Position numbers and translations under genes: made by a program. Shown in pieces: positions 92-6,558 of a stretch of 64,000 nt of DNA. The stretch's first letter is position 1, and each line of letters starts with the position of its first letter. Source of the stretch: Haladaptatus cibarius D43 (GTDB lineage: Archaea > Halobacteriota > Halobacteria > Halobacteriales > Haladaptataceae); assembly GCF_000710615.1 (NCBI RefSeq), contig NZ_JDTH01000001.1, positions 434,001 through 498,000 of the forward strand, given 5' to 3'. The notes below the pieces were generated by a model. It saw only the letters and a program-made list of their open reading frames with translations, searched no databases and had not been told where the DNA came from.

Positions 92-119
92 ACGAGACTC
101 GCTTACGCGCTCGTCTCGT
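92..119 (-). terminator. Inverted repeat spanning the stop codon of the surface-protein gene
   Basis: A perfect 7-bp inverted repeat (acgagac at 92-98, gtctcgt at 113-119) encloses the TAA stop codon of the gene read leftwards. It may be a terminator or an mRNA-end structure. The 91 bases to its left contain a short A-run but no gene that I can recognise. Confidence 0.4.
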
Positions 120-2235
120 TTGCAATAGTCGTCGCGGCACCTGCTTCTGTCGTCGTGTCCGAAACGACCGTCGTTTCACCCGCGACGGTGGTTTCGTCCG
201 CAACAGTCGTCTGGTTCACAGCAGTCGTTTGATTCGCAACCGTCGTTTCCGCGGCGGCAGTCGTCGTCGCCTCGGAAACGGTGGTTTCCGGCTCGGCAGT
301 TATCGTCTCGTTGGCCACTGTGGTCGTCTCTTCTGCTGCTGTCGTCGTTTCTTCAACGGTGGTCGTTTCCGCTGCTGGCGTCGTGGTTTCCGCCGGAGTC
401 GTCGTCTCGGCAGGCGTCGTGGTTTCTTCGGCACCCGCTATCGCAATGGTCGCTATTTCGCCGAAGTTAGCCGTGTAGACGCCGTGGGTGTACGTACCGG
501 GTTCGACTCCGCTGGTGTCGATTTGGTACGCCACGTCCACGCTTCCACCCGGTGGGAGTGCTACGTCTTTGCGCTCGACAACATCACCGTCCAATCGGAA
601 GTCCACAAACTGCGAGAGTTCTTGGTCGGTTGGGTTGGTGATGGTCGCGTTCACCGTGACGGTGTCGCCGACCGTCGCGTTCTGCGGCGCTTCTAAGTTC
701 TGCACGTCCAGCGACGGGCCGAGGTCGGAGACGTTGCTGACGTCACCGTCGTCTTCGGCGGTGGTCGTCTCTTCCGGAGTTGTTGTCTCTTCAGTAGGAG
801 TTGTTGTTTCCTCCGCTGGCGTCGTGGTTTCCTCCGGAGTTGTTGTCTCCTCTGCCGGAGTAGTTGTCTCCTCTTCCGGAGTGGTTGTTTCTTCAGCCGG
901 AGTCGTCGTCTCTTCAGGAGTTGTTGTCTCCTCTGTCGGCGTCGTCGTCTCCGCACTGTCCTCGACGGTCACGTTCGCCGGGTCAACCACGACTTCGTTG
1001 TCCACGACGTAGGGGAGGTCTTCTTCTCCCCCGGACGTGGCGAAGTCGTACATCTGATTCCCGTTCGTGTCGAGGTGCGGCATGGCGATGAGCGTCTGAC
1101 TCTCGGTGAGTGACTCATCGAGCGTCACGGTGACGTTCTCGTGCGTCCCGGGTTCGAGGTATTCCGACGACCCGAGAATGCTGCCGATGACGTTCCCTTC
1201 GAGAAGGCTCTCGTCGTGCATCGTCACGAAGCCACCTTCCGACATGGTAACCGAATCGACGGTTACCGTCTCACCGCTCGTGGTTTGGTCTTCGAAGGTG
1301 ACGCTGGCGTTGAGTTCCTCCGGTTGCTCGGGCACGCCCGGCTGCTCGGGCATCATCGTGGCGTTCAGGTTCGGTGGCAGTTCCACCACGAACGTCACGT
1401 TCTGCACGCTGATGTCGCGGAGGACGACGCGGACGGTTTCTAAGTCACTCGGAACCGAGACGTTGCTCGATTCCATCGTTTTCTCTACGTCCTCCTGCGA
1501 AACGTCCTGTCCGCGCTGGACGACTTCCTGCGCGGATTCGTTCTGAAGGAGCGCCGTCGTGTTCAGACGAACCGTCTCGTCCTGCAAGTCCACGCCGCTC
1601 ACGGTTTCGGTGCGGTCGGGTTCGGTGCTATCACCCACGATGAACGACCATTCGTCGATGTTCATCGATTCGACTTGGAAGACGAGTTGGTCGGGCAGTT
1701 GCCCGTCCGTCACGTTGTCTTCCGGTTGTTCTTCGGGTTCATCGACCGAAATCTCTGCACCTTCGGTGACTGGCGCACCTCGCTCGGTATACGGGCCGTC
1801 AACGGTTCCGTTGCCGATGACGAAGTCGTACACCTGATTGTCGTTCGTGTCGAGGTGCGGCATGGCGATGAGCGTCTGTGTCTCGTTGATGGATCGTGCG
1901 AGCGTCACGGTGACGTTCTCGTGCGTCCCGGGTTCGAGATACACCGAATTGCCGAGGACGCTTCCGACGACGTTCCCCTCAAGCAGGCTTTCGTCGTGAA
2001 TTGCGACGAATCCGCCCTCCGACATGGTCACTGACTCGATAACGACGGTTTCGCCGTCACTTTGCTGTTCGTTGATAGTTACGTTCGATTGTGCTTCCTC
2101 CTGTAGGTTTGTAACCCGCGTTTCTGCTGCTGTGTCCGTCTGTCCCGTGGCACCGAGCGATACCGCAACACCGCCGGCGAGTACCACGAGAACGGCCACG
2201 AATGTGGCACTAACTGTTCTCGGGATTCGTGTCAT
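103..2235 (-). CDS. Thr-rich secreted surface protein with two DUF7282-like repeats
   Basis: Predicted 710-residue exported protein. The start at 2235 is chosen because it opens a signal-peptide-like stretch (MTRIPR, then a hydrophobic run to about residue 30). Two closely similar domains at about 50-160 and 308-420 share the motifs VTMSEGGF, DESLLEGN and EPGTHENVTVTL, typical of the haloarchaeal DUF7282 family. A Thr/Glu/Pro stalk with ETTTP-type units covers about 430-495. A CARDB-like beta domain (about 505-603) follows, and then a second Thr-rich tail to the end. Many N-x-S/T sites suggest N-glycosylation, and the stalks could be O-glycosylated. No PGF-CTERM or transmembrane anchor is present at the C-terminus, so attachment to the cell is unexplained. 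It is divergent from the RNase Z gene. The exact role is unknown. Confidence 0.8.
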   Translation of the reverse strand: MTRIPRTVSATFVAVLVVLAGGVAVSLGATGQTDTAAETRVTNLQEEAQSNVTINEQQSDGETVVIESVTMSEGGFVAIHDESLLEGNVVGSVLGNSVYLEPGTHENVTVTLARSINETQTLIAMPHLDTNDNQVYDFVIGNGTVDGPYTERGAPVTEGAEISVDEPEEQPEDNVTDGQLPDQLVFQVESMNIDEWSFIVGDSTEPDRTETVSGVDLQDETVRLNTTALLQNESAQEVVQRGQDVSQEDVEKTMESSNVSVPSDLETVRVVLRDISVQNVTFVVELPPNLNATMMPEQPGVPEQPEELNASVTFEDQTTSGETVTVDSVTMSEGGFVTMHDESLLEGNVIGSILGSSEYLEPGTHENVTVTLDESLTESQTLIAMPHLDTNGNQMYDFATSGGEEDLPYVVDNEVVVDPANVTVEDSAETTTPTEETTTPEETTTPAEETTTPEEETTTPAEETTTPEETTTPAEETTTPTEETTTPEETTTAEDDGDVSNVSDLGPSLDVQNLEAPQNATVGDTVTVNATITNPTDQELSQFVDFRLDGDVVERKDVALPPGGSVDVAYQIDTSGVEPGTYTHGVYTANFGEIATIAIAGAEETTTPAETTTPAETTTPAAETTTVEETTTAAEETTTVANETITAEPETTVSEATTTAAAETTVANQTTAVNQTTVADETTVAGETTVVSDTTTEAGAATTIANETSA

Positions 2236-2412
2236 ATCTCCCTCCTCATCTGCGAACGAGGTGACGGCGACACACCCGATAAACGGCTTCGACCGTTCAC
2301 GGGATAAGACGCCGATTCGGTGGGTTAGGACGTTCCTGCCGTCCGTACCCTCGAACATCGTGACCCATAGGCCAGTATTTCCCGCCGAATCGAACGACCG
2401 TTTCGAAGGCGG

Positions 2413-2420
2413 TTTAGTTA
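2413..2420 (+). promoter_or_regulatory. TATA-like box of rnz
   Basis: tttagtta ends 22 nt before the ATG at 2443, the spacing expected for a leaderless haloarchaeal transcript. It supports 2443 over the in-frame ATG at 2449. Confidence 0.5.
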
Positions 2421-2442
2421 TCCGTCCACGAACTGCCAGTAG

Positions 2443-3369
2443 ATGTCGATGCGAGTCACCTTCCTCGGAACCAGTGGGGCAGTGCCGACGACGGAGCGAA
2501 ACCCGAGTGCCATCCTCGTCAACCGGGAAGGCGACCGTTTGCTGTTCGACGCAGCAGAGGGAACCCAACGCCAGATGATGCGCTTTGGAACCGGATTTAC
2601 GGTTTCTGACCTATTCATCTCGCATCTCCACGGCGACCACGTCCTCGGGATTCCCGGCCTTGTCCAGACGTGGAATTTCAACGACCGTGACGACCCGCTG
2701 ATGATTTACACGCCGCGCGGAACCGGCGACGACATCGACACGCTGGTTCACGCGGTTGGCAGTCAGCCGTCGTTTCCGATTCACATAACGGAAGTCGCGC
2801 CCGGCGAGGTGGCCGTCCGGCGCGACGACTACGAAGTCCGCGCGTTTCGAACCAAGCACGAAACTAATTCCTTGGGCTACGCGCTGGTCGAAGACGACCG
2901 AAAAGGTCGCTTCGACCGCGAACATGCCGAAGAACTCGGCGTTCCGGTCGGGCCGAAGTTCCAGCAACTCCACGCCGGAAATCCGGTCGAACTCGAAGAC
3001 GGAACCGTGGTCAAGCCCGAACAGGTCGTCGGCGACCCGCGACCCGGCCGCAAATTCGTCTACACCGCGGACACGCGCCCGTCGGAACAGGTGGTTTCGG
3101 TGGCTGAAGACGCCGACCTGCTTGTTCACGATGCGACCTTCGCAAACGACAGAGCCGACCGTGCGAAAAAGACCGCTCACTCGACTGCGGCAGAGGCCGG
3201 AAACATCGCCCAACGAGCGGAGGCGGTTCGACTCGCATTGATGCACGTTTCCTCGCGCTACGCGGGCAACGTTTCTGCACATCTTCGGGAAGCCCGCGAG
3301 GAGTTCGACGGCGAGGTGTTCGCCCCCGACGATGGCGAAATCATCGACGTCCCGTATCGAGAAGAATAG
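2443..3369 (+). CDS. rnz: Ribonuclease Z
   Basis: A 308-residue cytoplasmic metallo-beta-lactamase-fold endonuclease that removes 3' trailers from tRNA precursors. The beginning MRVTFLGTSGAVPT and the zinc motif HLHGDH at 61-66 are characteristic of the short RNase Z form. Further metal-ligand regions are the VYTADTRP segment near residue 210 and the late HVSSRY segment near 270. Length fits the roughly 300-residue archaeal/bacterial short type. The start at 2443 is set by the TATA box 22 nt upstream. It stands alone, divergent from the surface-protein gene, which fits a constitutive housekeeping role. No oddities are seen. Confidence 0.95.
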   Translation: MSMRVTFLGTSGAVPTTERNPSAILVNREGDRLLFDAAEGTQRQMMRFGTGFTVSDLFISHLHGDHVLGIPGLVQTWNFNDRDDPLMIYTPRGTGDDIDTLVHAVGSQPSFPIHITEVAPGEVAVRRDDYEVRAFRTKHETNSLGYALVEDDRKGRFDREHAEELGVPVGPKFQQLHAGNPVELEDGTVVKPEQVVGDPRPGRKFVYTADTRPSEQVVSVAEDADLLVHDATFANDRADRAKKTAHSTAAEAGNIAQRAEAVRLALMHVSSRYAGNVSAHLREAREEFDGEVFAPDDGEIIDVPYREE

Positions 3370-3530
3370 TGCGAACGAGTAGCGCGAACGAGTAACGAGT
3401 TATCCCCGAATGCGGAACGAGCAGAGATTCTGAATGGTCGAATCGACGCAGACGATGGTCTCCCGTTTCCTCGATGTCCCGTTATTTCACGACCGCAAAT
3501 TCATCTTTGAACATATTTACTAACGGTAAA

Positions 3531-3540
3531 AAATATTATA
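3531..3540 (+). promoter_or_regulatory. TATA box of the amidase gene
   Basis: aaatattata lies 27 nt upstream of the ATG at 3568 in a strikingly AT-rich leader, so the mRNA is probably leaderless. Confidence 0.5.
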
Positions 3541-3567
3541 ATGGGTAGGTATATTAAATAAACTGCG

Positions 3568-4434
3568 ATGAAACAGAATAGAAGAAACCTACTGAAACAG
3601 CTCGGAGCGGTTGGTGCAGTTGGATTCGGAAGCGTTGGACTGTCCGGAACGGCGAGTGCACACGTCCAAGACCCCTACGCGGACAGATGGGTCGCGGCGG
3701 ATTCGAGCAACTATTCGAACACGAACAGGAGTGCGAGTTCGATTAATTGGGTCGTCATCCACGTAACGCAGGGAAGCTATTCCGGGGCCGTCAGTTGGCT
3801 CCAGAATCCCGACTCCAACGTCAGCGCCCAGTACGTGATGCGGAACTCCGACGGCCACACCACGCAGATGGTTCACAACGAAGATACCGCGTGGCACGCT
3901 GGCGGCACGAACTACAACGCCCACTCCGTCGGTATCGAACACGAAGGCTGGGTCGGCGAGACGAACTTCACCGACGCACTGTACCAGAAATCCGCCAACA
4001 TCGTCAGTTGGCTCTGTGACACCTACGGCATCTCGAAGACCCATCCAACCGGAGTTGCGCCGTGCGACGCCCGAGACGGAAGCGGCATCATCGGTCACCA
4101 TCAAGTGCCAGAATCCGATTGCGGCTACAACGACCACACCGACCCCGGTTCGACGTGGGACTGGGACTACTTCATGAGCCTCGTCAACGGTGACAGCGGC
4201 GGTGGTGGCGGAAACAGGTTCGCTGACGGCGACCGAATTACGCCGACTGCCAACCTGAATACGCGCGAACAACCCGGAACCGACCAACCAATCGTCGCCA
4301 CGATTTCGCCCGGCGAAGTCGGCGAAATCATGAACGGCCCAGTCGATAAAGACGGCTACCGCTGGTGGGGCGTCCACTGGCTCGACCGCAACGTGTGGGG
4401 CTGGTCGGTCGAACAGTACCTCGCCGACGCATAG
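3568..4434 (+). CDS. Tat-exported N-acetylmuramoyl-L-alanine amidase-fold (PGRP/amidase_2) protein with C-terminal SH3-like domain
   Basis: A 288-residue protein. Residues 1-31 form a Tat signal (RRNLLK at 5-10, hydrophobic run, cleavage near AHV). Residues 58-205 match the amidase_2/PGRP fold: VIHVTQ with zinc-ligand candidate H65, a central GIEHEG with E124, GHHQVP with H177/H178, and HTDPG at 190-194, where Asp stands at the third metal position as in several active amidases. After a GGGG linker at about 211-215, residues 217-288 look like a bacterial-type SH3 domain (NTREQPG, GYRWWGVHW). In bacteria this architecture cleaves the stem peptide from murein. Haloarchaea have no murein, so the substrate may be bacterial wall fragments or another amide. 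The ligands look intact, so it may be active. No operon partner is seen. Confidence 0.85.
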   Translation: MKQNRRNLLKQLGAVGAVGFGSVGLSGTASAHVQDPYADRWVAADSSNYSNTNRSASSINWVVIHVTQGSYSGAVSWLQNPDSNVSAQYVMRNSDGHTTQMVHNEDTAWHAGGTNYNAHSVGIEHEGWVGETNFTDALYQKSANIVSWLCDTYGISKTHPTGVAPCDARDGSGIIGHHQVPESDCGYNDHTDPGSTWDWDYFMSLVNGDSGGGGGNRFADGDRITPTANLNTREQPGTDQPIVATISPGEVGEIMNGPVDKDGYRWWGVHWLDRNVWGWSVEQYLADA

Positions 4435-4518: not shown

Positions 4519-6558
4519 GTGAGCGAGCGAACGAGTGCCCTCGACGTTCTCGTCTACGGCGTTGACATCCAAAGCGGGGACGTGCGGGGTAATTCTCCCT
4601 CTTACGCGCTCGTCGTCTACGATGGCGAGCAGGTAGACCGCGATGTCGTTTCCTATCGGAAACTCCGCCGCCTCGTAGAGCGCGACGAACCCGCGCTGTT
4701 GGCGACGGACAACATGTACGAACTCGCCGAGAACAAGGACGCCCTCGTCCACTTCCTTCGGGGGCTTCCGGACGTGACGCGACTCGTTCAAGTAACCGGT
4801 GCGGAACGACCGGAACCGCTCTCCCGAGTCGCATCCAGACACGGGGTACCTTACGGCAAGAAGCCGATGCGCGAAGCGGAGGCGGCGGCCAGACTCGCCG
4901 CGATGAACGTCGGCCACGAAGTAACGGCGTTCACCGACACCACTCGGGTCAAGGTTTCTCGCGGCCGTTCGACCGGAAAAGGTGGGTGGAGCGAAGACCG
5001 CTTTACTCGCAGAATCCACGGTTCCGTGAAAGAAACCACCCGAAAAGTCGAATCCGAACTTCGGAGCGCCGGATTGGAGTACGAACGCGAAGTCACCGAA
5101 AAGTACGGCGGCTACTCCAACGCGGTGTTCGAGGTGTCCGCACGCCCGGGCGACATTCCGGTTTCCTCCCGTAGAGCGGGCGACGTTCGCGTCGAAATCG
5201 AGCGCCTCCGTCGGGATGGCATCGAGTTCGAACCCCTCGTCAAGCGCCGCGACCACGTCATCGTCGGTATCGACCCCGGAACGACCACGGCAGTCGCGCT
5301 GACCGGTTTGGACGGGTCGCTCCTCGACGTGTGGAGTACGCGAACCGCGGACACCGCGGACGTCATCGAATGGATAATCGAACGCGGACGCCCGATTATC
5401 GTCGCCGCGGACGTGACGCCGATGCCGGAAACCGTCGAGAAGATTCGCCGGAGTTTCGACGCGGCCCCGTGGACGCCCGAAACCGACCTTCCGATTGACG
5501 AAAAACAGCATCGAACTCGGGAGGAAAACTACGACAACGACCATCAGCGCGACGCCATGGCCGCCGCGTTTTTCGCCTTCGACGGCCACGAAGACCAGTT
5601 CGAGCGCATCGCTCGGAAAGTCCCGGGAGGGATGAATCCGAGCGAAGTCACCGCCCGCGTGGTTGCGGGAGACGAGAGCGTCGAGGCCGCCGTTGAAGCC
5701 CTCTCGGACGACCCGGAACCGGAAGAAGAGAAGTCTGAACACACGGTTCGGGAACTCTCCGCCGAGGAAAAGCGAATCAAGCAACTCGAATCGCAGGTCG
5801 AACGGTTGCAGTCGCACACTGACGACCTGCGGGAAACCGTGGAAGAGAAAGACGACCGAATCGAGGGACTCGAAGGCGACCTCTCGGACGCCAGACGCGA
5901 AGAGCGCGAAAACGTTCGCGCCAGACGCGAAATCTCTCGACTTCAGCGCGAGAACAACCGACTGGAGGACGAACTGGATGACCGTGACGACCGAATCGAG
6001 GAGTTGGACGGCAAACTGGAACGACTCAAAGAACTGTGGAAACTCGACCACTCGAACTTCAGCGACGTAGCCGAACAGAAGGCCGGACTCGTCGCCGTCA
6101 AACCGATTTCGAAGTTCACCAACGACGCAATCGATGCTGCTCACGAAAGTTACGGACTCGCCGAGAACGACGTGATTTACCTCCGGGACGCGAGTGGAGC
6201 AGGTCGCTCGACTGCAAAACGACTCGCGGACATCAGTCCGCGAGTCGTGCTCAAGGCGGGCGGAATTTCGGAGGTGGCCGACGAACTGCTGTTCGACAAC
6301 GACATTCCGGTCGGGCCTGCGAGCGACGTGACGATTCAGGAAATCGACGAACTCGCAGTCGCGCGTGAAGCGGAAGTAGAGACGGTCATCGAGGAGTGGC
6401 GTGACCGGGCGGAAGACCGCCGGAAAGAAGAAAAAACGGAACAACTCGACCAACTCATCAGCGAACACCGCGCCGAGCGCAGGGCCGACGAACGTCGGTC
6501 GTCGTCCTCTTCATCTACTTCGTCTTCATCTTCCTCGTCCTCTTCGTTCGGCAATTAG
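4519..6558 (+). CDS. DUF460 (COG2433) RNase H-fold protein with coiled coil and Ser-rich tail
   Basis: A 679-residue protein starting at GTG. It belongs to the archaeal DUF460 family, predicted RNase H-like nucleases of unknown substrate. The N-terminal half has two beta-rich acidic motif regions: VYGVDIQSGDVRG near residue 12 and the RNase H-like IVGIDPGTTTAVALTG near 250, followed by a conserved DEKQHRTREENYDNDHQRDA region near 325-345. Residues about 400-520 form a long charged coiled coil. A globular C-terminal part (about 525-625) follows. The last 20 residues are nearly all serine, a low-complexity tail. It is probably cytoplasmic, acting on nucleic acid, but no reaction can be stated. 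No operon partner is close. Confidence 0.85.
   Translation: MSERTSALDVLVYGVDIQSGDVRGNSPSYALVVYDGEQVDRDVVSYRKLRRLVERDEPALLATDNMYELAENKDALVHFLRGLPDVTRLVQVTGAERPEPLSRVASRHGVPYGKKPMREAEAAARLAAMNVGHEVTAFTDTTRVKVSRGRSTGKGGWSEDRFTRRIHGSVKETTRKVESELRSAGLEYEREVTEKYGGYSNAVFEVSARPGDIPVSSRRAGDVRVEIERLRRDGIEFEPLVKRRDHVIVGIDPGTTTAVALTGLDGSLLDVWSTRTADTADVIEWIIERGRPIIVAADVTPMPETVEKIRRSFDAAPWTPETDLPIDEKQHRTREENYDNDHQRDAMAAAFFAFDGHEDQFERIARKVPGGMNPSEVTARVVAGDESVEAAVEALSDDPEPEEEKSEHTVRELSAEEKRIKQLESQVERLQSHTDDLRETVEEKDDRIEGLEGDLSDARREERENVRARREISRLQRENNRLEDELDDRDDRIEELDGKLERLKELWKLDHSNFSDVAEQKAGLVAVKPISKFTNDAIDAAHESYGLAENDVIYLRDASGAGRSTAKRLADISPRVVLKAGGISEVADELLFDNDIPVGPASDVTIQEIDELAVAREAEVETVIEEWRDRAEDRRKEEKTEQLDQLISEHRAERRADERRSSSSSSTSSSSSSSSSFGN

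Follow-up and report, generated by a model that had tools for sequence, protein, structure and literature searches.

What does an intact protein of the murein-amidase fold do in an archaeon that has no murein? This question was raised by the gene at positions 3568..4434 of the window, that is, of the whole 64,000-nucleotide stretch of Haladaptatus cibarius D43 DNA that was analyzed. The first-pass annotation, made from the letters alone, offered three options for the product: digestion of bacterial cell walls, recognition of bacteria, or action on some other substrate. The phenomenon as such is already explained, because archaeal peptidoglycan hydrolases that kill bacteria are in print (PMC12352652; PMC4241558).

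Gene and domain organization

The open reading frame, like all features of the gene given below, lies on the forward strand. Its limits were exactly 3568..4434, its start codon was ATG, and its product of 288 residues was recognized as an Amidase_2 protein with predicted export; the reality of the gene was supported by the frame, the Pfam match and purifying selection. A conserved AT-rich block at 3528..3567, with a TATA-like AAAAATATTATAATG near the ATG, is likely the core promoter. This block was kept at the orthologues of H. litoreus and H. pallidirubidus and less so at two others. Residues 1–31 (3568..3660) constituted a Tat signal peptide with RRNLLK and, at its end, ASA. As the first-pass annotation had claimed, the signal was found by profile search (TIGR01409, 17.6 bits against a cut-off of 16.7); residues 1–30 were modelled by AlphaFold with low confidence. 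The Amidase_2 catalytic domain, residues 35–209 (3670..4194), was identified by Pfam (PF01510, E 1.9e-28, 99.8 bits against a cut-off of 26), by the model and by fold matches, and the earlier claim of an intact Amidase_2 protein was thus upheld.

A Gly-rich linker joined this domain to the C-terminal SH3-like domain, residues 216–285 (4213..4422), which is probably a wall-binding module. When the protein was searched against Pfam up to E 1, no second family was returned and the tail was left unmatched. The SH3-like character previously ascribed to the tail was confirmed by comparison with the repeats of a protein of Actinarchaeum halophilum (locus L070): the tail was 64% identical over 69 residues to one of them, and these repeats match SH3_3 at 9.9e-17. 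Furthermore, the tail was all-beta in the model, and SH3 was among its structure matches. The Actinarchaeum protein itself (L070:2468-5080, the same as the L005 protein; approximately 850 residues) combines a DUF900 alpha/beta hydrolase, four SH3-like repeats and Amidase_2.

Active site, fold and selection

Conservation of the candidate catalytic residues was counted in an alignment of 140 rows (65 haloarchaeal, 69 bacterial and 6 viral). The predicted zinc ligands H65 (3760..3762) and H177 (4096..4098) were His in 65/65 haloarchaeal and 68/69 bacterial rows. E124 (3937..3939), the predicted general base or proton shuttle, was aligned opposite SIGIELEG of AmpD and was Glu in all 140 rows. At position 192, where D192 (4141..4143) is the third predicted ligand, the 65 haloarchaeal rows were divided between Asp (39) and Cys (26). 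The ligand list of the first-pass annotation, H65, H177, D192 and E124, was therefore present in full, except that H178 had been left as an alternative to H177. Because position 178 was His in just 12/65 haloarchaeal rows, it may be concluded that H177, and not H178, is the ligand. In addition, H190 (4135..4137) had been missed; by motif, this predicted second catalytic residue takes the place of H177 of AmiE and K135 of PlyL (PMC2837410).

In the staphylococcal Atl amidase AmiE, zinc is bound by H60, H165 and D179, E119 is the proton shuttle, and H177, two residues N-terminal of the Asp, stabilizes the transition state, and PlyL has Cys in place of the zinc-ligand Asp and Lys in place of the second His (PMC2837410). 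The window protein resembled AmiE/AmiA in its H, H and D ligands, its Glu and the His two residues before the Asp; the AmiE spacing was reproduced in H190-T-D192, an equivalence by motif and not from superposition. However, the identity to AmiE/AmiA was only 12–16% over the domain. Moreover, Atl acts as an autolysin on the cell that makes it, and a haloarchaeon cannot need such an enzyme.

The AlphaFold model had a mean pLDDT of 83.7, and the catalytic domain was mostly above 90. The top structure match of this predicted model was AmpD (Z 19.3, rmsd 2.2 A, 153 residues), followed by AmpDh2, AmiD and phage amidases; PGRPs scored lower. The profile matches were also murein amidases, namely, AmpD (1.8e-20), AmpDh2, AmiD, AmpDh3 and XlyA. 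The marks of an AmpD-type enzyme were all found in the window protein: the profile, the His/His/Asp ligands (as sequence positions), a Glu together with a Lys or His near the zinc, and the fold. It thus shares its fold, H-H-D ligands and catalytic Glu with the zinc amidases AmpD, AmpDh2, AmpDh3 and AmiD. Unlike AmpD, which is a cytosolic recycling enzyme, it carries a Tat export signal, has His and not Lys before the last ligand, and possesses an SH3-like tail.

Among the named genomes, the nearest copies were those of Haladaptatus litoreus and H. pallidirubidus, with 98% identity in the catalytic domain. For this domain, dN/dS was 0.028–0.030 when the three closest Haladaptatus orthologues were compared; the values for the two nearest were 0.029 and 0.030. 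Against a more distant orthologue, it was 0.12–0.14 (0.139 for H. halobius). Therefore, the catalytic domain is under strong purifying selection, and the gene is not a product of chance.

These data bear on the option that the protein, as a PGRP-like binder, detects bacteria but does not cleave their walls. It has the PGRP fold in common (Z about 14), and relatives bear the annotation "peptidoglycan recognition family protein". However, non-catalytic PGRPs have lost zinc ligands, whereas here all three ligands and E124 were kept under purifying selection; in addition, no signalling partner was adjacent, the flanking genes being RNase Z-like and DUF460-type. Recognition alone is thus very unlikely, and of the functions originally listed, digestion of bacterial walls is the best supported.

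Distribution and origin

The haloarchaeal survey suggested in the first-pass annotation revealed Amidase_2 in 50 of 391 sampled Halobacteria genomes and in 20 of 86 genera. Within the family, 23/28 genomes were positive, and within the genus 9/9, with 1–5 copies each; the copy of one genome of the genus (G392) contained an internal stop. In a draw of 294 genomes from the phylum, matches were obtained in 8, two of which were listed merely as "same phylum". Tails varied among the 65 haloarchaeal proteins: one SH3-like domain was present in 26, two in 10 and four in 1, two PG_binding_1-like domains in 8, and SH3-like domains plus a glucosaminidase in 3, and 17 had no tail. A twin-arginine motif was found in 63/65, a count biased upward since start codons were picked with a preference for that motif; the other two proteins likewise contain RR but differ in the fifth residue.

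Before the first tree was built, 15 loci were removed as duplicates, decayed or partial frames, or remote viral matches. In this tree, a single branch with support 100 separated the 65 haloarchaeal rows from the 69 bacterial and 6 viral rows. The tree was then enlarged with a wider Actinomycetota sample, in which 21/149 genomes gave matches; loci with a short profile match or with a domain identical to an existing row were excluded. Again, one branch with support 100 set the haloarchaeal rows, now 81, apart from the 95 bacterial and 6 viral rows. Thermoactinomycetaceae, Actinomycetota and Myxococcota were among the sources of the bacterial rows nearest to the window protein; for Bacillota and Myxococcota, sampling was limited to rows close to that protein. 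The haloarchaeal branch was also marked by a lineage-specific insertion, between K157 and I174 in the window protein (4039..4089), which comprised 10–18 residues in 81/81 haloarchaeal rows and 4 residues in 91/95 bacterial rows.

In a tree that still included column 192, six Asp/Cys switches were counted at this position in total, of which one fell within the haloarchaeal rows. The Cys-ligand subclade (CPGP / CPYP; 26/65 rows) consisted of loci of the L015, L017, L018, L020-L024, L026-L030 and L042-L055 type. Its ligand set, which is similar to that of T7 lysozyme and PGRPs, arose inside an AmpD-like family. A separate bacterial origin of this subclade was considered and rejected, since the haloarchaeal rows remained one branch after the wider Actinomycetota sampling. 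In the first-pass annotation, an archaeal family with different ligands had been named as an outcome that would speak against its reading. The family is indeed archaeal, but the change from Asp to Cys, a residue that also binds zinc in relatives, was confined to one subclade, and the window protein is unchanged. The expectation was thus borne out only in part.

The GC content of the gene was 0.597 and its GC3 was 0.733, compared with 0.609–0.617 and 0.703–0.704 for its neighbours. Recent transfer was rejected because this composition is not clearly foreign. A single old acquisition from bacteria, with later diversification in haloarchaea, would fit the sequence data better, because the haloarchaeal rows form one branch and have a segment in common. 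The tree is unrooted, and the direction from bacteria to archaea was inferred from the narrow archaeal spread. Accordingly, the proposal of transfer from bacteria can be retained for an old event and not for a recent one.

Genomic site

The gene lay between an upstream gene at 2467..3369 (+), which we take to be RNase Z-like from its sequence, and a downstream gene at 4519..6558 (+), presumably of the DUF460 family. The open reading frames and the comparison of flanks indicated that these two genes mark a conserved site. Among the 20 loci examined, the amidase was found between them in the host genome and in four other Haladaptatus genomes (L169-L173). In two loci of the genus (L174 and L176) and two of the family (L183 and L188), the RNase Z-like and DUF460-type genes were adjacent without the amidase, with gaps of 584, 727, 1384 and 57 bases. 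No amidase remnants were detected in these four gaps, where significant matches (E <0.01) occurred only beside the DUF460 start. In the 11 other loci, neither the DUF460 gene nor the amidase was detected within the 1.5 kb flank. It may be concluded that the amidase was gained or lost within the genus and family and is not part of a prophage.

An endolysin left by a virus or prophage would account for the PHROGs families matched by the protein, which were mostly endolysins. However, the phage matches amounted to 8 records, with bacterial hosts throughout and identity of at most 35.5%. Furthermore, a viral endolysin would be located in a virus or prophage, whereas the same two cellular genes flanked the gene in five Haladaptatus genomes, and the protein has a Tat signal. 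The endolysin explanation is extremely improbable. A viral origin was also rejected after a search of viral contigs, which gave 50 pattern matches and 10 relatives with 27–44% identity, none of them close; with a Cys-type query, no match was obtained in the viral contigs.

Several minor observations were made around this site. The orthologue of genome G325 was 82% identical and lay on another contig (316,765 bases); beside it, a second stretch on the opposite strand (L035:2792-3010, -) specifies an SH3-like domain that shares 78% identity with the tail of the window protein. Upstream in the window, 103-2568 (-) encodes a large Thr/Glu-rich, repeat-bearing protein that is probably secreted. With the listed TTG start, the frame would overlap the RNase Z-like gene; translation therefore probably begins at the internal ATG (MTRIPRTVSATF).

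Murein enzymes of the host genome

A genome search revealed four Amidase_2 places in the host: L001, the window gene, L003 and L004. L001 encodes 206 residues with no tail, L003 encodes 361 residues with two PG_binding_1 domains, and L004 encodes 356 residues with one Pfam-called SH3_3, the remaining tail being SH3-like by eye. These three paralogues are likewise of the Tat type. In addition, the host has an M23 peptidase (L158) and a Glucosaminidase (L157), each with two PG_binding_1 domains; the search gave one Glucosaminidase and six PG_binding_1 stretches in three proteins in all.

In two other Halobacteria (L018 and L032), Amidase_2, SH3-like repeats and a Glucosaminidase were found in one chain, the amidase-repeats-glucosaminidase order described for the Atl autolysin (PMC2837410). 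This fusion suggests that the two activities have murein as their common substrate. The partners, PG_binding_1, Glucosaminidase and M23, are the strongest evidence for murein as the substrate. A decayed locus (L059:1368-2084) showed the first half of an amidase joined directly to an apparent glucosaminidase end, as if an L032-type gene had lost its middle part.

The partners have to be weighed against the view that the enzyme acts on a surface glycoconjugate of the archaeon itself or on another amide. This view accords with the lack of murein in haloarchaea and with two features of the haloarchaeal branch, namely, its private segment and the altered ligand in one subclade. However, the presence of the family is patchy (50/391 Halobacteria), and PG_binding_1 and Glucosaminidase accompany the domain in paralogues and relatives. 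A substrate other than murein is very improbable.

Proposed function and comparison with known systems

From the sequence data and the model, it is highly probable that the product is a zinc N-acetylmuramoyl-L-alanine amidase, which is secreted, breaks down bacterial murein and belongs to a set of six enzymes likely directed against neighbouring bacteria. The protein would be exported by the Tat system in folded form, would be active in salt and would bind zinc on H65, H177 and D192. As in the mechanism put forward for staphylococcal AmiE, E124 would activate water and shuttle protons and H190 would stabilize the transition state. The bond cut would be that between MurNAc and L-Ala of bacterial peptidoglycan, and the SH3-like tail would keep the enzyme on the wall. 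The 17/65 family members without any tail count against this reading, as does the absence of a curated wall-binding Pfam match in the window protein. Together with the three Amidase_2 paralogues, the M23 peptidase and the glucosaminidase, secreted activities against three classes of murein bond may be available. These activities would likely serve to lyse halophilic or salt-tolerant bacteria nearby, either as a weapon or to obtain food.

The same activity could serve nutrient scavenging, in which murein of dead or lysed bacteria is degraded and the peptides and sugars are taken up, a role that overlaps with the preferred one. An enzyme set spanning three bond kinds suits it, as does a Peptidase_S66 gene in the host, though the control Haloferax volcanii also has one. 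However, no MurQ (MurNAc-6-P etherase) match exceeded the cut-off, and three weak matches spanned about 70–80 of 291 positions. Scavenging is thus possible but rather doubtful. A role in a spore or hypha wall was considered and rejected; the Actinarchaeum paper names an S-layer, and "peptidoglycan" and "amidase" are absent from its main text.

A murein-directed amidase would have published counterparts. Woldo (M23) and Danwoldo (glucosaminidase) of Halogranum salarium, both with Tat signals and two PG_binding_1 domains, kill Halalkalibacterium halodurans (Strock 2025, PMC12352652). The host proteins L158 and L157 have the Woldo and Danwoldo architectures, a likeness that concerns their domain make-up. 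The window protein is similarly haloarchaeal, Tat-type, modular and predicted to cut murein, but its domain is Amidase_2 and its tail SH3-like. The criteria of Strock 2025 for modular peptidoglycan hydrolases (PMC12352652) include a Pfam catalytic domain and, as a common but not required feature, a secretion signal, and the window protein has both; at least one Pfam wall-binding domain is also included, which L003, L157 and L158 have and the window protein lacks. A survey demanding such a domain would therefore probably miss it. The GH25 muramidase of Aciduliprofundum boonei is an archaeal enzyme that hydrolyses murein, derives from bacteria and has antibacterial activity (Metcalf 2014, PMC4241558), and the window protein would be like it in being an archaeal murein hydrolase acquired from bacteria. 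A literature search of titles and abstract openings found no paper on a haloarchaeal Amidase_2 enzyme. GH25 differs from Amidase_2 in both family and bond.

That archaea attack bacteria through murein cleavage is a published idea with few tests behind it, and it would thus be extended to the amidase class. New here are this class and its reach in Halobacteria, the grouping of the archaeal members in one branch that has a private segment and includes a ligand switch, and an SH3-like tail that Pfam does not call in the window protein. More tentatively, Haladaptatus might possess a standing multi-enzyme secretome for murein digestion, assembled from old bacterial acquisitions that diversified in haloarchaea (including one Asp-to-Cys switch), in which tails set different targets and the enzymes act together. 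If so, haloarchaea would be active predators on bacteria and not holders of an occasional toxin gene. Whether the tails determine which bacteria are attacked can be tested directly with the six-gene set and its tail-swapped paralogues: among the four host amidases, the tail is absent, SH3-like, double SH3-like or PG_binding_1.
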